Source of the DNA: a virus
Direction: 5' to 3' (one strand)
DNA length: 35,594 bases
Virus record (IMG/VR): IMGVR_UViG_3300046747_000057
Span: 1-35,594 of that record
Positions 9,454 through 27,110 of this stretch are shown piece by piece. How positions within the stretch are numbered: position 1 is the stretch's first letter; each line of letters opens with the position of its first letter. Both the position numbers and the translations under genes were made by a program. Under the pieces are notes generated by a model. That model searched no databases. It saw only the letters and a program-made list of their open reading frames with translations, and was not told the origin of the DNA.

Positions 9454-10149
9454 ATGAGCCTGTACTTCCAAGCTGTAAATATCACGGGTGCCGCTCCGGT
9501 CCTGACCTACGCGAGCACCGCCTCTACGGGTGGAACCCTTGCCGATTCCACCACGTACTTCTACCGCGTTTCCGCGATCATGGAATCCGGTTCCGATGGT
9601 ACGACCTACGAAACCCTGGCGGTTGCACAGGGTGCCGGACAGGCCGTTTCGTCCGGTACCGCAACCAACACGGTGACGATTACGTGGACCGCCGTTCCGG
9701 GCGCCACGGGCTATCGCGTCTACGGTCGTTTGACCGGTGCGGCGAAGCTCATCGCCACACTCGGAAACGTCCTGACGTTCACGGACACGGGCGCCACGGC
9801 TTACCCGCTTTCGACCACGGTGGTGCCGGTTGCCAGTACCTTCCTGGCCGGTAACTACTTCGGTCCGGGTGTGAGGGGCTTCACCCCAATCACGGCAGCG
9901 GCAACGCCGGACCTGACCTTGCCTGTTGCCGGGGCCTCGGCCCAGAGCCAGTTGCTGGCAGGCCAGCCCGGTACGCTGTTGAACCTGACCTCGGGAACCC
10001 TGACGTTCCACCTGTCCCCGGACAATGTGACGTTCAACGGGACGGGGTATGCCGATGTGGCGGTCCTGACCAACACGTTCGCGCAGATAACGATTCCGAA
10101 CTTCATGTATGCTTCTGCTGCCGGAGGCTATTTGCTCTCCAGTACCTAA
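9454..10149 (+). CDS. head decoration-like protein with FN3-like domain
   Basis: A 231-aa beta-rich protein just after the capsid gene, with GGAG before its ATG. Residues 30-110 form a fibronectin type III-like domain: TYFYRVSAI, then VTITWTAVPGATGYRVYGR, then TFTDTG. A second beta domain fills residues 130-231. Position and composition fit a protein displayed on the capsid surface or a head fibre. A similar FN3-like domain lies inside the adaptor encoded 3 kb downstream. The decoration role is inferred. Confidence 0.65.
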   Translation: MSLYFQAVNITGAAPVLTYASTASTGGTLADSTTYFYRVSAIMESGSDGTTYETLAVAQGAGQAVSSGTATNTVTITWTAVPGATGYRVYGRLTGAAKLIATLGNVLTFTDTGATAYPLSTTVVPVASTFLAGNYFGPGVRGFTPITAAATPDLTLPVAGASAQSQLLAGQPGTLLNLTSGTLTFHLSPDNVTFNGTGYADVAVLTNTFAQITIPNFMYASAAGGYLLSST

Positions 10150-10566: not shown

Positions 10567-10585
10567 CACTATTGGAGTCGTGCCC

Positions 10586-13402
10586 GTGACGCTGCAACTG
10601 AACCCCGACACCACGGACGACTATGAAAGTAAAACCTTTGCCGAAATGCGGCAGATGGTCTTCGACGGTCTGGGGTTCATCGACCCCCTGTCGAACGACA
10701 ACCGGACACTTCTGATGATTCGGACCAGCATCGTCAACCGGCTGGGGCTGGCGGTTGCTCTTTTGGTGGGTGGAGATACCTTCGCCACCGTTCTTACGAA
10801 CACCTACAACGCCTGCGGCTTTGCCGCTCTGGGAACCCACCCACCCGGTGTGGACACGCTCCTGACCGATTTCATAAACCAAGCCCAGCAGATGCTCTTC
10901 CGACGCATCGAGTTGGACAAGGGTTCGGCAACCCTTCCCGTCGCAGGAACGATTTCCATTGATTCGGCTCTGGTACAGAGTGCCGCTATCGCTCTGGCCA
11001 AAGCCCACTTCGGACAACCCGACGCGCAGAGTTACGGGCAGCAGGCGGAACGCTATCTGGCCGACCTCACTCAAAGAACTCCCCCGAACATCGTCGGGCA
11101 GATCAACGCGGCGGTCATCGATGCACACAACACCATCCTGAGACGGTACGAGCTTGGACGCTCTGCCTTGGGCGCCCCGAGTTTCGGCACGGCCATTCTG
11201 GGGAACTACACCTCGACCGCGGCAGATGGAAACACAACCATTGCCGACGACCAGCCTGTTGAGTTACTGGCTTTGGCGAACCTCAAGACCAAGATCGGCC
11301 AGCCCGACGCCAAGGCGATGTTCGAGCAGTACGAGCAGTACATGTCGGACGTGACAAGACGCCAGCCGCCAAACGCGACGAGCATCGTCAACAACCAGTT
11401 GAAGATCACCCAGCAGACGCTCTACCGGAAGTATGACCTCTTTCGGATGGAGCGCTGGTGGACGTGGAGTCTGGTGGCTGGACAGCGGTTCTATGGCACG
11501 TTCGGGGCCGACGATGCACGTTCCATAGCTCCCACGGGGCTGACGGCTCTTGAGGGAACGCCGGGTGGTGTCGTATCTCACAATACCAGCGTCCCGCACG
11601 CGCGCCCTGCCTACGTTCTTCTAAACGATGGCCGCGCACTGATTGCCGGCGGCTATACGAGCCGGTCAACCATCGCAACCAATATCGCGGAGATATTCGA
11701 CCCGGCGACCGGGGTTTTTACGTTGACGGCGCCGATGAATGTTGCACGAACGTGGTCAGCGTTTTGCCTTTTGCAGAATGGGACGGTTCTCGTCACAGGC
11801 GGCGGTCCATTTGGCTATGACGTGGTGGCCTCCGCAGAGATTTACGACCCCGCGCAAGATACATGGACCCTTCTCGCCAACAGCATGACAACGCCCCGCG
11901 CCGAGCATTCGTGCGTGTTGTTGGGCAACGGGTCTGTGCTGATTTCCGGTGGCGTCGGGGCTGACCTGACGACCGCGATTGGTACAAGCGAACTGTACAA
12001 CCCGCAGTTAGGCACATTCACCGCAGGACCGGCCATGGTCACTGCCAGAAAAGCATTCGGCATGACCTTGCTGGCGAATGGCAAGGTTCTGCTCAATGGT
12101 GGATTGAATGCCGCCTCCGCCGTAACAGATCATGCGGAACTTTACGATCCTGTCGCCAATACATTCACCGCAACCGGAGCAATGGTTGTCGGCAGGGCCT
12201 CCATGACGCCTGTCCTGATGCCGGATGGTCGCGTGCTGGTGGCCGGTGGCGTTTCCACACTCAACGGTGCTGAACTCACGGCCGAGGTCTACCAGCCAAG
12301 CACGGGAACCTGGGCTGCGACAGGCAGCATGACGGACAAGCGGTTTTTCTATACCGCAATCCTGATGCCGAATGAGAACGTCCTTGTTGCAAGCGGCGGA
12401 GACGGGACAGTTACGCCGCAGGTCACGGCCGAGATTTTCGATCCCGTGACGAACACCTTTTCGCTCTCCGCCGGAACAATGCCGACCGGAGCGATGGAGG
12501 GCGCCGTCTACTCGTTGCATGATGGGCGCATCCTGATCGCCAACGGACATCCCGGTGTCAATAACTTCGCCATCAACACGGCGATGTTCTACGACCCAGA
12601 TACTGACGCCTTTTCGGCTACGGGTTCACTGACGGCTGGATCGACATTCTATGTCGTGACTGCCGCGACCGCCAATGGAGAAAGTCTGCCGAGTAACGAA
12701 GCGTTCGTTCTGACCGTGCCTGTTGATACAGCCATTGACCTGTCATGGACCCCGACGCCGAAACAGCCGTTCGTGAAGTGGTTCAATATCTATCGGGGAA
12801 AGACTTCTGGTGCAGAAGGCTATATCGACAGGGTTCCTGCCTCGCAAACGACGTACACGGATGATGGAACCATCCCGCAGGGTCGCGCGGTGCCCACGGA
12901 GAACAACACCCAAGGCCCGGGGAGCATTGATCCCAGACACGTCACTTGGGTAGGGCTTTCCTTCAACGACAACGTGTGGAATCCCTTGATCAAGGGCATC
13001 CCTCCAATGGCGTTCGGACAGAACATCAACGGCGTTCCGACGAACTACGAGATTCGTCAGGCTCTGGAAATCTGGCCTGCTCCGACCACCACGGACTGGA
13101 AGGTTCAGATCAAGGGTTACTTCGAACCCCAAGTCTTTGAAACCGATGACGACACCACGACGCTGGACTGGCAGGCGATTTACCTGTGGACGCTCGCTGA
13201 CGCGATGCCGCGCTTCCGAAACCAACGGGGCCAGCCGTGGTTCAACCAGTTGGAAATTTCTCAGGCACAAGCCAACGCGATGCAGTACATCAAGCATCTC
13301 GTCGCGGGAACGCACATGACCGCTAGGTACGTTCCGGGCGTGATTCTTGAAAGGAACGCGGTCAGACCTGTCCTTGTCGGACCGTATGTTGGGTATCCAT
13401 GA
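10586..13402 (+). CDS. head-tail adaptor with inserted kelch propeller and FN3-like domain
   Basis: A 938-aa protein. GTG 10586 is preferred to GTG 10580 because GGAG is eight bases before it. Residues about 90-300 contain three copies of a helical unit: PP, then an aliphatic helix ending LxRRYEL or LYRKYDL, then GQPDA and a YLADLTQR-type helix. The third copy runs into ERWWTWSLVAGQRFYG, the usual adaptor core. Residues about 335-685 are seven kelch blades of about 50 residues, each with G-x-VLV-x-GG, an AEIYDP-like strand and a W/F-T-x-x-x-M ending. An FN3-like domain follows (about 685-762), and the adaptor resumes at RHVTWVGLSFNDN and LEIWPAP to the end. It joins portal to nozzle; the inserted domains probably project outward. 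Confidence 0.8.
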   Translation: MTLQLNPDTTDDYESKTFAEMRQMVFDGLGFIDPLSNDNRTLLMIRTSIVNRLGLAVALLVGGDTFATVLTNTYNACGFAALGTHPPGVDTLLTDFINQAQQMLFRRIELDKGSATLPVAGTISIDSALVQSAAIALAKAHFGQPDAQSYGQQAERYLADLTQRTPPNIVGQINAAVIDAHNTILRRYELGRSALGAPSFGTAILGNYTSTAADGNTTIADDQPVELLALANLKTKIGQPDAKAMFEQYEQYMSDVTRRQPPNATSIVNNQLKITQQTLYRKYDLFRMERWWTWSLVAGQRFYGTFGADDARSIAPTGLTALEGTPGGVVSHNTSVPHARPAYVLLNDGRALIAGGYTSRSTIATNIAEIFDPATGVFTLTAPMNVARTWSAFCLLQNGTVLVTGGGPFGYDVVASAEIYDPAQDTWTLLANSMTTPRAEHSCVLLGNGSVLISGGVGADLTTAIGTSELYNPQLGTFTAGPAMVTARKAFGMTLLANGKVLLNGGLNAASAVTDHAELYDPVANTFTATGAMVVGRASMTPVLMPDGRVLVAGGVSTLNGAELTAEVYQPSTGTWAATGSMTDKRFFYTAILMPNENVLVASGGDGTVTPQVTAEIFDPVTNTFSLSAGTMPTGAMEGAVYSLHDGRILIANGHPGVNNFAINTAMFYDPDTDAFSATGSLTAGSTFYVVTAATANGESLPSNEAFVLTVPVDTAIDLSWTPTPKQPFVKWFNIYRGKTSGAEGYIDRVPASQTTYTDDGTIPQGRAVPTENNTQGPGSIDPRHVTWVGLSFNDNVWNPLIKGIPPMAFGQNINGVPTNYEIRQALEIWPAPTTTDWKVQIKGYFEPQVFETDDDTTTLDWQAIYLWTLADAMPRFRNQRGQPWFNQLEISQAQANAMQYIKHLVAGTHMTARYVPGVILERNAVRPVLVGPYVGYP

Positions 13403-14187
13403 GAGCCGTCGTCCTCAATACATCAGCCGCAGGCATGACGCGGCTGCGGGGCAAGGGTGGGGCGAGTCCTGAAACCCTGTATGAGGCAACAAATTGCTAT
13501 GTAAACGCATCAAGGGCCATCCAACAACGCCCGGCGATGCAGTATTACACCATCTTTCCCAGCACCAGCCGGGGAATGACGGTCTTCAACGGGGTGATGT
13601 ACACCTTCACGGCTCACGCAGTCAGTAATCCCGGCAGCGCCACGGTCAAGGTTCTGATTCACCCCACCCCCGGTTTTACCGGAGAGTTATATCGGATTCA
13701 TTTCGCCCAGCCCTTCATGGGCCTGTTGTACGTGGTGGCGGAATTTGACGACCATGTGATTGCGCATTACTGGCTTCAGGAACCGGCGACATGGCAGCCG
13801 CTGACGATCTACAACGTCAATGACCTCGTACAACCAACCGTGCCGAATGGGTTCTACTACAAGGCCGTGATAAACAATCCGCCCCCCGCATGGCAGCCGA
13901 ACACGCTGTACAAGTTGGGCGATGAGGTCCAGCCGACCACGTACACCGGGTACTCGTTCCTCGCGACGAACCTGTTGCCACAAAGTCCGACGACTTCGAG
14001 TGGCACCGAGCCGACGTGGGTCAATATTCCCGGCGCGCTCGTTCTTGAATCCTCGTCTGGTCCGGCATCGAATGTCGGGACTACGGCCCCCCCGACACCA
14101 CCGGATACAAAACCGGTCGGCATCCTTCCGGGTGGAAAGTACAGCAATCCCGGTGGGCGGTTTGGTTCGGGGACTTTGACCCCATGA
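13399..14187 (+). CDS. tail nozzle protein, N-terminal part, with carbohydrate-binding-like repeats
   Basis: A 262-aa protein overlapping the adaptor by ATGA. The first 60 residues match the start of T7 gp12-type nozzles: a [23 protein letters not shown]-like segment and an QQRPAMQYY end. After a beta region come two copies of a small module ([15 protein letters not shown] and [15 protein letters not shown], about 132-215), resembling chitin-binding CBM5/12-like folds. The tail is Pro/Gly-rich. The rest of the nozzle is in the next gene, so the nozzle is encoded in two pieces joined by ATGA. Confidence 0.7.
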
Positions 14188-16358
14188 CGAACAACCTTGT
14201 CAATACCTGGACTCCGGGTACCACCTACCCGCCGAACTCCGTCGTAAGACCGACCTACGTCACCGGTTCCAGCTCTGACCCGCCGATCAACGCGAGTTTC
14301 GAGTCTGGGGCACTACTCACCACGGCTGTCGTCACCGCATCCATCGCAGCGTTTACCCTAACGGTGACGGGCGTCACGTCCGGTGTTCTGGCTCTTGGGA
14401 TGACGCTCAGTGGCACGAGTGTCACCGCCAACACCCGAATCGTTGCTTTCCTCACGGGCACCGGTGGAGCGGGCACCTACACGGTCGATATCTCGCAGAC
14501 AACCGCTTCGACCACCGTCACGGGTTCGGGGGGCTTTACTTCCAGCGGCGGGTTCACGATTGTCAGTTCCGGGGCGTACTCGGGGACGTACTGCGCTTCC
14601 CTGCCCATCTCCTCGGGAAACCAGACGCTCATCAACACCAATCAGGCACCCACCCCCACGGGTGTACACCTGAGTGCGTCGGCTTACGTGAACTTCGGCA
14701 ATGTCATTTCCAGTGCTTCGGCAAGAATGACGCTGACGGTCTACGACAACACCCACGCCTTCATTGCCACCTATACGGGGAACTTCGCCAATCCCGCTTC
14801 CACCGCAGCAGGAAACGGCTGGAGAAAGATCACGATAGACGACGTGCCGATGTTGATCGGAACGGCTTTCGTATCGGTCGGTATCAGCGTCATCAACAAC
14901 TCCACTGCCGGACCGATCCTGGTTGACTACTTCGCGTGGGACTTGCTGGCAAACCCGTTCAACGCGAACCAGCTTTTCTATGCTGTTCAAACCGGCACGG
15001 GAAAGTCGGGTCAGACGGAACCCGTGTGGGCGACTACTCCCCCGAACATCACGGACGGCACGGTCACTTGGTCCAGCCAAGTCCCGACCTCGATTCTGTG
15101 GGTAGGCGAGCCGATGCTGAAATCCGGCACGGTGGAACCCGGAGGTTTCGGCGGTCCTGCGGCATGGCCGACCCAGCCCGGTTTGTCGGTTCTGGACACG
15201 CTGAGCGTCAACCAGAACTTAAGCTGGGTGGCCTTAACCCCCCAAGTGGTGGACCCGAACGATTCCACACTGCCTCCGGCTTCTCCCTACGTGATGATTG
15301 CGAGTAGCAAAATCTTCGTGGCCAACACGGACATCGTGAACTTCTGCGCCACGACGAATCCGTTGGACTGGACGACCGAGGGGAATGCCGGCTATCTCCC
15401 CACCGGACTCCAGACCTACGGCGGGAACCCGTTCCAAGCCATCGGTCTATACCGAAGCAACGGGGTTTTCTTCAACGCCCAAGGCATGCAGATGTGGCAG
15501 CTGGACGAAGACCCGGCCAACATGGCGCTTCTTGAAGCTATTCCCATCGGCAGCACGCAGCACAGAGCCTTGGCCCCGGTGAACAACGACCTGTTCTTCC
15601 TAGCCGCCCAAGGGGTAAGAACCATGGGCATTTCCGCAGGGTCGGGAAATCTCCAAGCCGGTGACGTGGGCATGCCGATTGATCCGCTCGTCCAAGCCGC
15701 GGTGGCTTACGCCGCAGCGAACAGTCTTCCGTGTATCGGAACGTACTTCCCGAGCGCGGGGCAGTATTGGCTGGGGATTCCGAATTTCGCCGCTGCGAAC
15801 GGAACCTACGTCAGCCCTCCGACAGACGGAAATGGCACCACGACCATCTTCGTCTACACCATGTCGAGAGTCGGTGAAGTAGGGGCTTGGAGCCGCTACG
15901 TCATCCCCATCGTGATGCAGGACTTCGCCCAGTTCGGGAACGACATGTACGTGAGGGGTCTTGATTCTCACAGTGCCCAGATCGCGGTGAAAGTGGCTCT
16001 GGGCATCTTCGTGGATACGGTATCCACCGGAACACAAACGACCTTCAACGGCATCATCCAGTGGCCGTGGCTCGATGACGGGCAGCCGGGTGCGACGAAA
16101 CAGTTGGTCGGTGTAGATTTCGCGGTGACGCTCACCAATGCCGGAAGTGGCTATACCTTCCAGGTCGGCTACGACCAGTCGGATACCACCGCGTTCACGG
16201 CCACCTGTACTTTGACCGGAGACACCATCCCCGGATTCATCATCCCGATGGCCATGATGGCGCCGACGTTTAGCTTGAGAATGACGATGGATTCCGCCAC
16301 GGGATGGTCCGTGCAGGAAGCCAATCTTTACTTGCAAGACCAGCGGCTGACCTCCTGA
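14184..16358 (+). CDS. tail nozzle protein, main part, with nested inserted domains
   Basis: A 724-aa protein. Residues 8-25 begin another W-x-P-GTTY module whose end ([18 protein letters not shown], then DGTVTW) lies near residue 280. Between them are a jelly-roll-like CBM segment (NASFESG near 31; resumes [16 protein letters not shown] near 120; closes VDYFAWDL near 255) and, inside that, a G-x-x-L-S-G-T / [11 protein letters not shown] module (about 40-110). From about 300 the nozzle propeller resumes: [44 protein letters not shown], then beta domains to the end. It forms the tube tip together with the preceding gene product. Domain names rest on pattern only. Confidence 0.75.
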
Positions 16359-21278: not shown

Positions 21279-23752
21279 TGGCCAAGTGTTCACCCGAGTA
21301 CAACGACGAAACGCGACGGCTCAAGGCCCATGTCGCGGACCTTCGTCGTGTCGCAAAAGGCGCGGAGTCCGGTGACTTCGGGGAAGCCATTCGCGCCAAG
21401 GCCAACGAAACCATCGACTCCGGCGTGACGGACCCGACCAAGGTCGTCGAGGCCGCGCACGAGTTCATCAACAAGTACGCCCCGCACGAAAAGGCTGATG
21501 TAGCCGCCAAGATTGCCGAGAAGCCCAAGGCGGCGACTCAGAGCGAAGCATCCAAGCAACGTGCGGCTGTCCGTGCGGAGATTCGCGACCTGGAGAAGGT
21601 GCAGAAAGGTCTGGACGCAGACGCGGCTGAAAGAGCCAAGCAGTCCGAGAAGCAGTCCAACGCTGCGCTGGACAGGCACATTGCCGACCTTGAGCGGCAG
21701 ATTGAGACGAACGTCAACACGGAGCAGCAGCGAGGAAAGCCGGACACGCCGGAGATTGCTGCCAAACGCGCCAAGTTGGCCGATTTGCGCGAACAGAAAA
21801 AGATGCAGACGAATCCACCGCCTGCTGTCTTTCCCGAAAAAGCCAAGGGGCGACCCAAGGACGTTCAGGCAGAGCGCGAGAAACAGGAACGCAATCGCCT
21901 GACGAACGACATCAAGAAACTCGATGAGCAAATCGCCAAGGGACAGGCAGAGGCCAAGAAAGGCGATGTCCAGCGCGCCGACACGGCGGAAGTGGCGAAA
22001 CTAAAGGCCGAACGGGCCGCGAAGCAGCAAGAGGTCGATAACCTTCGCCCGTCGCCGGAAGCCACGCGCCCGGTTGACCCGAACGTCGCCAAGAACAAAG
22101 CGGCCTTGAATCGCCTGAAGGCGAAAGAGGCCGAACTCACCCGTCAGTTGGAAACCAACGACTTCCCCGAGCCGCAGAAACGCAGCACTCGGGGACAAAG
22201 CGAGGATGTCAAGCAGGCGCAGCAGAAGGTTGAGGCCATCAAGCGACAGACCGACGCGGCCATCGAGAAAGGCAACCGACTGAATCAGGGCTGGTTCAAG
22301 ACCGCTCTGGAATTGGCCCACATCGAGTACCTGTTCTCCATCTTCACGTCGCCCAAAGTCATCCCGAAACTGCTGTACGCCGTGGCGGGAGGGCATATCC
22401 ATTCGTTCCTGTCGGACGCCACCATCAGCCTTGCTCGCACCGTTCCAAGGTTGCGCAAGATTCTGGATCAGGCGCCGCAGTACGGCGTTGGGCTAACGAC
22501 AAGGGGCCTCAAGGCCCGTTATGGCGAGGGCGTCAAAGCCATCCCCAAGGCGATGAAGGAAACGATTCAACAAGGGGCAACGCACGAGGAAATTGCTGAG
22601 GGGAACCCCGCGCATCAGTCCGACTCGTTCCTCTTCCACATCGGCACAATGACCGACGCATTGAACACCGCAGGAAAGGCGAACAGGGCGCTGGAAGTGG
22701 CGCGGGTGGTTTCGTCCTACCCCGCGAGATTCCACGGTGTCGAAAAGACGATGCTGTCGGTTCCTGCCATGTTTGAATCCCGAGTCAAGCAGACCATCCA
22801 GATTGAACGTTCCATGAAATCCGCTGGAAAGACCGATGCGGAGATTCACGAATTCCTCAACCGTCCCTCCACTGCCGCTTCCATCAATGGCCGTGCCGTA
22901 GCCAAGGGCTACGAGGAAAAGATGCAGGGCGCCAACAAGTTCAACGACATGCTCTTGGCCGGTATTCGTGCCGCAGACAAGTCCAAGAACATCGGCGCGA
23001 ACATAATCGGGGCGATTTTCAAGAGACTCCTGCCCGTCACTCGTGTTGGTCCGAATGTCTTCAAGCAAGGCGTCGAGATGGTGCCGTTGGTAGGTACGCT
23101 GAAGGCCGCGTTCAAGGGCATGGAAGGCGGCGAGATGACGCCGGAACGTGCCGACTACATCGCTCGCAACATCGGCGCACAGGGTAGCGGAGCGCTATTG
23201 ATGATGGCTCTGGGCATGGTCTTCCACAAATACTTCGGCGGCGTTCCGGGAGCGGCCATCAAGAAAGACCCGAATGCCGAGATACAGGAAGGCCAAGCGA
23301 AGTTCGGTGGTCTGGATGTCGGTGGAGAAGCCTTCCACGGCTCGCCCTTCGCCATGCCGGAAATCGGCGCCGGGATCGTCAAAGTCTACGAGGAAGACAG
23401 GAAACTGTTTCCTCAAGACACGGCAGTCGATGCTGCGCTGTACTCCATTTTCAGCAACCTGAAAAACTGGGGTGAGCGTACACTTCCTTACACGGACCTC
23501 ATGCGCAGAACGGAAAACACCTTGGAATACGGGCGCAACCACGGGAAAGACCAAAGCCCGTGGATGGAGGTCTTGGGTGGCCAGTTGCGGGGAAGCATTC
23601 CACAGGTCATTCAGCAGGAAGCGGCACGCGAAGACCCGAACAAGAATTACCTTCGCCCGAGAAACATCACCGAAGACATGATGGCGGGGATACCCGGCCA
23701 GAGACAGAAAGTCCCTCACTCCAACAAAGGTCCACCGGGAGCAAAACCATGA
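21278..23752 (+). CDS. large internal virion protein (ejection), coiled-coil and C-terminal hydrophobic domain
   Basis: An 824-aa protein. Residues 1-330 are charged Ala/Lys/Glu coiled coil. From about 340 it becomes a folded helical domain with aromatic and hydrophobic stretches (HIEYLFSIFTSPKVIPKLL; GSGALLMMALGMVFHKYF near 640-660) and a conserved-looking WGERTLPYTDLMRR near 730. The pattern resembles the C-terminal regions of giant phage ejection or polyvalent proteins. It would travel into the cell with the DNA. The function is inferred. Confidence 0.6.
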   Translation: MAKCSPEYNDETRRLKAHVADLRRVAKGAESGDFGEAIRAKANETIDSGVTDPTKVVEAAHEFINKYAPHEKADVAAKIAEKPKAATQSEASKQRAAVRAEIRDLEKVQKGLDADAAERAKQSEKQSNAALDRHIADLERQIETNVNTEQQRGKPDTPEIAAKRAKLADLREQKKMQTNPPPAVFPEKAKGRPKDVQAEREKQERNRLTNDIKKLDEQIAKGQAEAKKGDVQRADTAEVAKLKAERAAKQQEVDNLRPSPEATRPVDPNVAKNKAALNRLKAKEAELTRQLETNDFPEPQKRSTRGQSEDVKQAQQKVEAIKRQTDAAIEKGNRLNQGWFKTALELAHIEYLFSIFTSPKVIPKLLYAVAGGHIHSFLSDATISLARTVPRLRKILDQAPQYGVGLTTRGLKARYGEGVKAIPKAMKETIQQGATHEEIAEGNPAHQSDSFLFHIGTMTDALNTAGKANRALEVARVVSSYPARFHGVEKTMLSVPAMFESRVKQTIQIERSMKSAGKTDAEIHEFLNRPSTAASINGRAVAKGYEEKMQGANKFNDMLLAGIRAADKSKNIGANIIGAIFKRLLPVTRVGPNVFKQGVEMVPLVGTLKAAFKGMEGGEMTPERADYIARNIGAQGSGALLMMALGMVFHKYFGGVPGAAIKKDPNAEIQEGQAKFGGLDVGGEAFHGSPFAMPEIGAGIVKVYEEDRKLFPQDTAVDAALYSIFSNLKNWGERTLPYTDLMRRTENTLEYGRNHGKDQSPWMEVLGGQLRGSIPQVIQQEAAREDPNKNYLRPRNITEDMMAGIPGQRQKVPHSNKGPPGAKP

Positions 23753-24588
23753 CACAGTTCGGTTCACAGATTCAGACCGCCGTCCACGTCCGGCTTGCCA
23801 CGGCAGCCGCGCTGGATACCTGCACCTACTCCGACACGACCGCCCTCGTTCCTGCCAACCAGGACTTGGGTGCCAAGCTCGTCGCCACCGTCGCTGGAGC
23901 GCTTACCGTCGATAGCGTGGCTGCCGCAGTAGATGACGATATATTAGTAAAAGACCAGTCCTCGACCCTCCAGAACGGCGTGTATCGCGTTCGTAGCGCT
24001 GGCAGCACGACTACCGTATGGTCGCTTGAGAGAAGCCGTCAGGCCCGTGACAGTGGGCAGTTCGATGGCATGATAGTCACAACGGGACCGGACGGCACGG
24101 CCAATGCCAGCACCACCTACCTCTATGGCGGTGTGGTAGCACCGGTGATTGGAACGGATGCCATCCTGTACGTCCACAACACCGCTCCTGCGGGGACGGC
24201 GACGACACAACCTGCCGGTACTTCCAACACCACAGTCGCCACGACCGAGTTCGTCATCCTGAACGAGTCGAACACGCTGACGGTCTTTTCCACGATCAGC
24301 CCAGGGGATACGATTTCCCCAGTGGCCAACGGCTACACCCGGAACATCCTCGCGTTTGACCCCGGTGGAACCATAGCAACGCTGACCATCGTCATGCCGG
24401 ATGGCGCGTTCGACGGACAGGACTACCAGTTGTCCTTCAGCAGCATTGTCACGGCGCTGACCTTGAACGGCACGTTTACCTCGTCGGGGGATGGGCTGGC
24501 CAAGCCCACGGTCACGACCGCCACGTCGAACTTTGGGTTTACGTGGGATGTCGTGACAGCCACCCCGGCATGGCGGCGTTATCGGTAA
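23749..24588 (+). CDS. tail fibre protein, N-terminal adaptor type
   Basis: A 279-aa protein starting by ATGA overlap. Residues 14-105 match a common tail-fibre module: VRLATAAAL, CTYSDTT, LTVDSVAAAVDDDILVKDQ, LQNGVYRV, WSLERSRQARD. A PAGTSNTTVATTEFV segment (about 155-170), also typical of fibres, follows. The C-terminal beta domain is unfamiliar. It probably attaches distal fibre parts to the tail. Confidence 0.7.
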   Translation: MTQFGSQIQTAVHVRLATAAALDTCTYSDTTALVPANQDLGAKLVATVAGALTVDSVAAAVDDDILVKDQSSTLQNGVYRVRSAGSTTTVWSLERSRQARDSGQFDGMIVTTGPDGTANASTTYLYGGVVAPVIGTDAILYVHNTAPAGTATTQPAGTSNTTVATTEFVILNESNTLTVFSTISPGDTISPVANGYTRNILAFDPGGTIATLTIVMPDGAFDGQDYQLSFSSIVTALTLNGTFTSSGDGLAKPTVTTATSNFGFTWDVVTATPAWRRYR

Positions 24589-25737
24589 ATGTCCCGTGCG
24601 TTCGTCCAGCTGTGGAAGACCACCCTTAAAGGCGTCTCGATTGACGTAGACGCCACGGAAGGCGCCATCATTGGCGAAAACCTGTTCATCCGTCAGTCGG
24701 ACGGAACACTGGCGTTGTTTGAGCCGTCCAGCGGTGTCGTCACACCGTCTGTCGGGAATGCCGTCACCGTCAGCATCACCACGTCGGGGATGTCCACGAG
24801 CACTCAGCAGGTAGGTGGAAGCAATTCCGGGTATCAACAGGACATTTCCCCTGCCGCAGCGCCCACCAACTTCGACCTCGACGCCTCGATGATTGCGGGG
24901 CTGAACAACCCCGAGTTCCCGACGCTGAACTACATCCTGGTGGGCAACGGGGTGAGTTGGGTTGCCGTGCCGATGACGGGGGATGCGACCATCCTGGCCA
25001 GCGGGGCTATCACGGCGAACGTCGTCAGCAAGACGGCGACAGCGAGTGGTACGAATACCTACACGGCAACGTTCAATCCGGTCGCCTTCATCACGGGCGT
25101 TGTCTACACCGTCACGTTTACGAACGGCAACACCACGGCAGCGACGCTCAACACCAAAGCCATCAAGTTCAAGGGCAGTGCGTTGGTGTCCGGTGACATC
25201 CCGGCAAGCTCGACGCTGGCCCTGCTCTACGATGGAACTAACCTTCAGATCGTCGGGCCAAGCCTTGGGGCGGGTTCCGGGTTCCTGCTCGCTGCAAACA
25301 ACCTGTCTGATGTCGTCAGTGCGATTGCCTCGATTGACCACATCAGCAAGATCAGTACGACGATTGCAGCAGCAGCGACGACGGACCTGACAACAGCGAC
25401 CGGTGACTCGGTCACGATTACGGGTGCTGCCACTATTTCATCGCTTGGAAACGGGGCTGCCGGTATCCGCCGGGTCACGAGTTTTTCTGGCGGCGGGTGC
25501 GTGCTTGTCCATAACGTAGCGTCAATGGACCTGATCACCCAAGCCAACATCACTACGGTCATCGGGGACAAGTGCGAGTGGGTTTCAGTCGGTTCCAGCC
25601 AATGGGTGATGGTGTGGTACACACGCTATGATGGAACGGCGCTCGTTGGTGGTAGTTCTGTTACCGCAGGAACAGGCTTGGTCGATACCTCCAACGTGAT
25701 ATCCCTTGCGCATTCGGTTTACGTCTACTTCGGGTGA
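24589..25737 (+). CDS. tail fibre or receptor-binding protein
   Basis: A 382-aa beta-rich protein that begins directly after the previous stop. Low in charge, rich in Thr, Ser, Gly and Ala. Residues about 155-223 form a domain also found in the 26199-27110 protein: YTATFNP, Y-x-V-T-F, NTTAATLN, then YDGTNLQ. The C-terminus (SVTAGTGLVDTSNVISL) is like trimeric fibre ends. Likely distal fibre part. Confidence 0.65.
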   Translation: MSRAFVQLWKTTLKGVSIDVDATEGAIIGENLFIRQSDGTLALFEPSSGVVTPSVGNAVTVSITTSGMSTSTQQVGGSNSGYQQDISPAAAPTNFDLDASMIAGLNNPEFPTLNYILVGNGVSWVAVPMTGDATILASGAITANVVSKTATASGTNTYTATFNPVAFITGVVYTVTFTNGNTTAATLNTKAIKFKGSALVSGDIPASSTLALLYDGTNLQIVGPSLGAGSGFLLAANNLSDVVSAIASIDHISKISTTIAAAATTDLTTATGDSVTITGAATISSLGNGAAGIRRVTSFSGGGCVLVHNVASMDLITQANITTVIGDKCEWVSVGSSQWVMVWYTRYDGTALVGGSSVTAGTGLVDTSNVISLAHSVYVYFG

Positions 25738-25740
25738 CTT

Positions 25741-26199
25741 ATGGCTGGCAATAACCTGCAAATCTTCTCCAAGGTCGGCGTCATCGGGATTTCCTCGACC
25801 ATCACAGCGGCCAATACAGCGACCGATGGAACGGGAACCTGCCCGACCATCTTCACTGCGGATGCCACCAACGGCGGCAGGGTGGAGCGAATTCGCTTCA
25901 TGGCCCAAGGCACGAACGTGGCAACCGTGGCACGCATCTTCATCAACAACGGAAGCACGGCGGGAACCTCGACGAACAACGTCCTGTACGCGGAGGTGGC
26001 GCTTCCGGCAACGACCGCCAGCAACAGCGCAGCCATCAATGCCCAGGTCTACGAACTGCCCTATCAGTACGCCTCCCAATCTCCACCGGACACGACGGCA
26101 TTCCCCATCGTGCTGCCACCGGGATACAAGCTGATCTTCTGCATCGGCACGGCGGTTGCCGGTGGTTGGGCCTGTGCGGCTCTGGGTGGGTCGTACTGA
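25741..26199 (+). CDS. virion-associated protein, probably tail fibre region
   Basis: A 152-aa beta-type protein between two fibre genes. Patterns such as GRVERIRFMAQGTN and ATVARIFINNGS suggest a beta-sandwich. Similar small proteins occur next to fibre genes and may form a structural plug or spike. No certain family. Confidence 0.55.
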   Translation: MAGNNLQIFSKVGVIGISSTITAANTATDGTGTCPTIFTADATNGGRVERIRFMAQGTNVATVARIFINNGSTAGTSTNNVLYAEVALPATTASNSAAINAQVYELPYQYASQSPPDTTAFPIVLPPGYKLIFCIGTAVAGGWACAALGGSY

Positions 26200-27110
26200 T
26201 GTCGCACCGTCCCTACTATCCGGGGGACATGGCGGGGTTTCCAGAACCCGGTGTGCCGGTTCGGGTCAAGCCGCTGGTCGGGGTGAAGAACGACAAGTTG
26301 GCCGATATGGCCGATGGGACAGTCAAGAGCAATTTCTCTGGACGCCTGGACGCGCCCAGTGACAACACGCCCGATGCCGCCCTGATCCAGCGCACCTACT
26401 ACGCATCCAGTACATCGGGGACCGCGACCTACACGGCAACCGTTTCCCCGGTGCCGACCGGCTACGTAACCGGAGCGCAATACGCCGTCACGGTAACCAG
26501 CGCCAATACCGGCGCGTCCACGATGAACTTCAACTCGTTGGGAGCCAAGACGATACAGGCCAATGGCGCTGCGCTGCTTGCCGGACAACTGCAGGCGGGC
26601 GTGACGTACCAGATGATCTACGATGGTACGAATCTTCAGGTGACCAACAACGTCATCCTGGTGACGCAGACGTTCAAGAACCTGATCGTAAAGCCAGCCG
26701 ATGAGGCTAGGTTCAGCAATGTAACGCCCGCTGATGATACGGACCTGAAGGTTACTCTGCTGTCAGGAAAGACCTACAATATCACCATTGTCGCATCATT
26801 CAACGCAGCCACCACTGGCATGCACTTGAAGGCCAATTCCGCCTTTACTGGAACGACCTCTCAATTGTGGGTGAACGGAACACTGTCAGTCACATCGAAC
26901 ATCGTCTCGGCAGGACGAGCGGCATTGAACAATCACCTTTCCTATACCCCCGGCACGGTTGATGCCAATACCCCAGTCTGCGCGATATTCAACGCCATGC
27001 TGATCACGACATCCACTGGAGTGTTTTCCATGCAGTGGTCGCAGGGTATAACAAGTGTTTCAAATCTTACCTGTCTGGCCGGCAGCTACTTGTGGGCCAT
27101 CTCCAACTGA
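26199..27110 (+). CDS. tail fibre protein
   Basis: A 303-aa protein in TGATG overlap, GGTGGG upstream. Residues about 15-65 are an N-terminal linker. Residues about 70-145 carry the module shared with the 24589-25737 protein (YTATVSP ... YDGTNLQ). The C-terminal 150 residues are a beta-rich domain (YNITIVASFNAATTGMHL), possibly receptor binding. It ends 51 bases inside the convergent minus-strand gene, with no terminator seen. Confidence 0.65.
   Translation: MSHRPYYPGDMAGFPEPGVPVRVKPLVGVKNDKLADMADGTVKSNFSGRLDAPSDNTPDAALIQRTYYASSTSGTATYTATVSPVPTGYVTGAQYAVTVTSANTGASTMNFNSLGAKTIQANGAALLAGQLQAGVTYQMIYDGTNLQVTNNVILVTQTFKNLIVKPADEARFSNVTPADDTDLKVTLLSGKTYNITIVASFNAATTGMHLKANSAFTGTTSQLWVNGTLSVTSNIVSAGRAALNNHLSYTPGTVDANTPVCAIFNAMLITTSTGVFSMQWSQGITSVSNLTCLAGSYLWAISN

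Follow-up and report, generated by a model that had tools for sequence, protein, structure and literature searches.

The window analysed here is the whole of the IMG/VR virus record IMGVR_UViG_3300046747_000057, 35,594 bases that encode TerL, a large portal, the MCP and a tail module and that belong to a short-tailed phage. An adaptor ORF lies at 10580-13402 on the plus strand, as do all features of the protein described below. Read from the first GTG (10580), it encodes 940 aa; the probable real start is the second GTG (10586), which has better spacing to a GGAG sequence, agrees with the start sites of relatives and yields the 938-aa product given in a preliminary description of this DNA. The gene follows the portal and MCP genes and precedes the downstream tail genes, as is typical of the adaptor family, and the gene order of the window resembles that of OP028995 (portal, MCP, tail tubular protein, DNA stabilisation protein).

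Searches with the portal and MCP found no close relatives among annotated phages: the closest were Rhizobium phage RHph_N65 and Microcystis phage Mae-Yong1326-1, at only ~25%, plus two weaker partial MCP matches. A tblastn search of phages with the C-terminal part of the adaptor gave no match, and single-protein scans of viral contigs (queries: the adaptor, its C-terminal part and the portal) returned no adaptor relatives, only one unrelated kelch protein. Relatives were taken from profile scans, in which the MCP profile gave 72 contigs and adaptor profiles added many more, and 117 unique adaptor ORFs were surveyed with segment HMMs built from single-copy adaptors.

The flanks of the insert form one adaptor

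The two flanks are parts of one adaptor of the SU10 gp11/T7 gp11 type. Upstream of the insert, alignment and segment HMMs identify the canonical alpha-1 helix and the first strand of the fibre-dock beta-domain (...RWWTWSLVAGQRFYG; 11366-11506, residues 263-309). Downstream, the rest of the adaptor (12920-13399) comprises the fibre-dock beta-domain (781-850), the canonical alpha-C (853-911) and a C-terminal tail equivalent to the embracing loop, with pLDDT about 83-95 at 781-870 and lower values after. The gene order is similar in RHph_N65 and Mae-Yong1326-1, whose adaptors of 237-238 aa carry no insert; aligned with them, the window protein has ...RWWTWSLVAGQRFYG ahead of the insert and ...IDPRHVTWVGL beyond it. 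The flanks align to uninserted adaptors (L003/L004), with the order portal-MCP-adaptor conserved. On the window protein, the segment HMMs matched in the order alpha-1, beta (split into 293-313 and 777-848), alpha-C and tail, so that bundle, beta-domain and tail are all present.

The Pfam profile SU10_adaptor (PF24175) matched the C-terminal flank at E 2.5e-4 and 22.0 bits, below its curated cut-off of 27, a shortfall that the insert probably causes by interrupting the match; in relatives it scored 56.1 (L017), 35.7 (L053) and 35.3 bits (L029), with no match in L096 and L133. A PDB sequence search with a profile of uninserted adaptors gave no convincing match, so that support for the adaptor fold comes only from structure comparison, where the model of L017 matched the solved adaptors of A4 (Z 14.3), SU10 (13.5), T7 (10.3) and P22 (9.1). 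The window protein thus shares with SU10 gp11 and T7 gp11 the helix bundle, the beta fibre-dock domain, the C-terminal embracing tail and the position after the MCP. However, SU10 gp11 has about 230 aa and one helix bundle, with neither FN3 nor kelch domain, whereas the window protein has 940 aa, three bundles and both domains.

A kelch propeller lies within a probable FN3/Ig-like domain

The largest inserted element is a seven-bladed kelch propeller (11585-12634, residues 336-685), with repeated GG and AE-YDP motifs in a closed ring, as in the kelch-repeat propellers of KEAP1/KLHL proteins and galactose oxidase. Pfam assigned it far above cut-off (Kelch_6 E 1e-28, Kelch_1 3e-19), AlphaFold2 built seven blades of four strands each (344-680, pLDDT mostly 60-92) and Foldseek matched the propeller model to solved kelch domains at E about 1e-19. 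In VIA, the window model matched PLL lectins (Z 29) and galactose oxidase (Z 27, 20% identity); propeller matches took up the list, which is therefore silent on the other parts of the protein. The preliminary description had read seven kelch units at 11590-12640 (residues about 338-687) as a complete seven-bladed ring: the units are real, their limits were accurate within a few residues, and the ring is complete in the model.

The propeller is itself flanked by the two parts of a probable FN3/Ig-like domain. The A strand (IAPTGLTALEGTPGG; 11525-11569, residues 316-330) was recognised by alignment with L053, L091 and L228, and the remainder (LTAGSTFYVVTAATANGESLPSN...; 12629-12874, residues 684-765) by blastp to the FN3 domain of L053 (E 6e-6). 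AlphaFold2 predicted beta-strands in this region, and Pfam detected FN3 in relatives weakly and below cut-off (0.0017 in L091, 0.05 in L053). L053 and L091 (Rhodanobacter genome) carry an FN3/Ig-like insert of ~115-120 residues without kelch at the same site (loop of 128-131 residues). Alignment to these proteins makes IAPTGLTALEGTPGG strand A and LTAGSTFYVVTAATANGESLPSN the strand after it in one and the same domain; the propeller, placed between the two, therefore occupies this domain's A-B loop, and the FN3 domain in turn follows the first strand of the adaptor fibre-dock beta-domain. The flank alignment thus bears out the proposal that a domain was inserted in a single adaptor, between its two halves and with the frame intact, except that the propeller is hosted by the FN3 A-B loop and not by the adaptor directly. 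The FN3 domain and a triplicated helical core are features that the preliminary description had not mentioned.

Most of the 117 adaptor ORFs are single-copy and uninserted, and about 100 relatives lack the propeller, typically with a loop of 12-14 residues at the insertion point. The same kelch-in-FN3-in-adaptor order was found in an ORF of at least 1012 aa that lacks only its C-terminal end (L228/L251, IMGVR_UViG_3300046817_000813; about 39% identical to the window protein over residues 88-874) and in a full-length 967-aa version on a 46.5-kb IMG/VR contig (L264). A fourth adaptor (L252), whose helical part shares 76% identity with that of L228, agrees as far as it goes and is cut by the end of its contig inside the FN3 A strand. 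The fusion is rare (3 certain cases and one incomplete among >100 unique adaptors), and a scan of the genomes of one bacterial order with the helical part recovered adaptors that were uninserted or FN3-only and none other; a scan of a second order returned no adaptor at all and carries no weight. An assembly join, or a propeller encoded by a separate gene in relatives, either of which had been named as grounds for rejecting the insertion, is ruled out because L228 and L264 independently encode the same fusion.

In an MCP tree, the window groups with L251 and L252 (92/92), with L264 nearby, and the FN3-only phages fall in another clade, so that the site may have acquired FN3 on more than one occasion. 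One insertion site in three states (empty, FN3-only, FN3 plus kelch) offers a stepwise picture of how phages could add recognition domains to their virions, and marks a place on the phage neck that tolerates a large domain.

The adaptor helix bundle is multiplied

The N-terminal 290 residues of the window protein consist of extra copies of the adaptor helix bundle. Three copies of helix alpha-0 (10634-10822; residues 19-33, 43-57 and 67-81) were recognised by alignment with the L017 group, L264 and L228 and correspond to model helices 20-30, 44-62 and 67-78; the segment HMM detected the second copy only, weakly, the others being seen mainly by alignment. They are followed by the innermost extra bundle copy, which has no beta-domain (10841-11074; alpha-1 88-109, E 2e-9; alpha-C 126-165, E 1e-13), and by a second extra copy (11090-11359; alpha-1 171-191, E 0.03; alpha-C 214-260, E 3e-11), clear in the L228/L264 alignment. 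For the strongest extra copies, E values of 2e-9 to 1e-13 compare with a best value of about 0.006 in 200 shuffles.

Bundle number varies across the family: one in most adaptors, two in L096 and L133, three in the L017 group, L264 and the window, and four in L228 and L252. Wherever they could be counted, by HMM or by eye, the numbers of alpha-0, alpha-1 and alpha-C agree, and the elements run as n copies of alpha-0, n-1 pairs of alpha-1 and alpha-C, then alpha-1, beta and alpha-C, an order that fits a nested arrangement in which each bundle sits within the alpha-0/alpha-1 loop of the following one. Compared with the window protein, L228 has an extra second alpha-0 and an extra third alpha-1/alpha-C, which belong to the same layer only under nested pairing. 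Consistently, in the L017 model, the alignment of the solved adaptors runs from the first alpha-0 to the C-terminal domain (A4: 194 aligned residues, range 35-450), whereas the match to Sf6 gp7 covers just the inner copy 88-195 (Z 8.5), spans that support nested pairing; because Z of 8-13 can be common for helical bundles, according to VIA's notes, the Sf6 gp7 match is supportive only. In the AlphaFold2 model of the window protein, pLDDT is low over these N-terminal helices (mostly 24-66). Like the extra copies, P22 gp4 and Sf6 gp7 are helix bundles without a fibre-dock domain; however, they have a single bundle per chain, whereas here the beta-less bundles are nested in a longer adaptor chain.

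In both the window protein (13136-13312) and L264, the canonical last alpha-C lacks the family motif KAHxxQPDA, which the inner copies keep in whole or in part. This distribution of the motif points to a working role for the inner bundles in the ring.

The multiplied bundles bear on the number of propellers per virion. A figure of about twelve, as given in the preliminary description, is not established, since with three bundles per chain four chains could fill twelve portal sites, and four chains with four propellers may suffice if each bundle fills one site. We tentatively raise the possibility, which we rate below even, of a ring of 12/n chains (n = 1, 2, 3 or 4 bundles; four chains here), each bundle on one portal site; fewer beta-domains would then leave room for propellers shown four or three times rather than twelve. 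A family with one, two, three and four nested bundles per chain provides a natural test of whether a 12-fold portal ring can be filled by fewer chains. The neck adaptor is usually regarded as a plain coupling ring; in this family, it can be multiplied as well as decorated.

A possible recognition role for the neck propeller

We read the protein as a head-to-tail adaptor of the SU10/T7 gp11 type, from a short-tailed phage, in which domain insertions are stacked. By homology, its bundles, including the two extra ones nested in the alpha-0/alpha-1 loop, would hold the portal in a ring of chains whose beta-domains face outward, so that the propeller would be displayed from the neck on an FN3 stalk. 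We know of no virion of this phage's group that has been imaged. In SU10, the beta-domain is the dock of the long tail fibres and its loops protrude radially (PMC9509320).

Every part of this protein is of a known kind. We found neither a kelch-bearing adaptor nor one with nested bundle copies described in the literature and solved structures searched (subscription journals were mostly outside the search), in agreement with the preliminary description, which knew of no adaptor with a kelch architecture. The kelch proteins of Myxococcus phage Mx1 (27% identical over residues 258-662), Pseudomonas phage EL and Paenibacillus phage phiERICV each come from a gene of their own, which may lie close to baseplate or tail genes or at another place, with no adaptor insertion.

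With moderate confidence, we interpret the propeller as an accessory recognition domain displayed at the neck: we infer that it would serve as an adhesin surface for a glycan or protein of the host envelope and aid reversible attachment, probably adding gripping surfaces to the virus neck. Among the window, L228 and L264, kelch is the least conserved large domain (32-40% identity, vs 41-52% in the helical part and 50-53% in the C domain). Within it, invariant positions make up 8% of the b-c loops, 16% of d-a, 23% of a-b, 29% of c-d and 40% of strand b. The variability of the b-c and d-a loops would fit a recognition surface, an argument tempered by the small comparison of three sequences, by the nature of the a-b and c-d loops as short structural turns, and by strand a, which has no invariant position either. 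Recognition domains on a virion neck have a precedent in the neck passage structure of lactococcal 936 phages, where carbohydrate-binding modules bind host cells, one having been shown to bind its host; those modules, however, are different proteins of siphophages of a Gram-positive host and involve no adaptor insertion (PMC6669499).

Kelch propellers have many kinds of binding partner, so that a role in docking fibres or in stabilising the particle could suit this one as well. In the former case, which we consider rather unlikely, the propeller would extend the fibre-dock domain as a docking platform for side fibres or tailspikes of the phage itself, and the fibre, not the propeller, would touch the host. 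The same beta-domain docks long tail fibres in both SU10 and T7 (PMC9509320), and candidate tail/fibre proteins are encoded downstream in the window (23560-27110). However, uninserted relatives have this beta-domain without kelch, which is thus unnecessary for docking in general, and the variable b-c/d-a face looks, on weak evidence, more like ligand diversification. It is less probable still that the propeller stabilises the neck as a structural brace or a decoration of the capsid vertex and plays no part in recognition: although FN3/Ig-like and propeller domains can also be structural in phage tails, the SU10 nozzle having a seven-bladed propeller and Ig-like domains (PMC9509320), most relatives do without the propeller, and its low conservation relative to the C domain points the same way. 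An active enzyme on host glycans, such as a sialate epimerase or a copper oxidase resembling galactose oxidase, is very improbable. It is suggested by the structural match to galactose oxidase and by weak Pfam matches to Glyoxal_oxid_N and NANM, below cut-off; yet residues 336-690 contain only 5 His and 2 Cys and no YH dipeptide, and copper-oxidase activity was rejected because the Tyr-His pair of copper radical oxidases is missing. Finally, a functionless assembly or recombination accident, which the rarity of the fusion might suggest, can for practical purposes be set aside given the intact frame, the same nesting in independent contigs (L228 and L264, which already contradict this reading) with kelch domains as divergent as those above, and an insert GC3 of 0.67, within the range of the phage's other genes.

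Additional domains in neighbouring genes and related adaptors

Between the MCP and the adaptor, a 231-aa protein (9454-10149) also contains a stretch of FN3/Ig-like character (GGTLADSTTYFYRVSAI...) that resembles the FN3 of the adaptor in style. Downstream of the adaptor, two genes (13399-14187 and 14184-16358) overlap (ATGA) and both encode short W-x-P-x-T-x-Y motifs; the first, of 262 aa, has a weak CBM_5_12 match and is kept as a separate gene in relatives. Together, they are a possible second carbohydrate-binding decoration.

Some adaptors among the relatives (L019 10267-11694, L010 4057-5412, L096 6518-8047) have an extra, beta-rich-looking N-terminal domain of ~100-150 aa (e.g. MANLL..DP..W...), which looks like another decoration of the same neck protein. 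In others (L173 5539-6810, L175 5122-6831, L177 5128-6813), long beta-rich N-terminal extensions of up to about 300 aa precede a single helix bundle.
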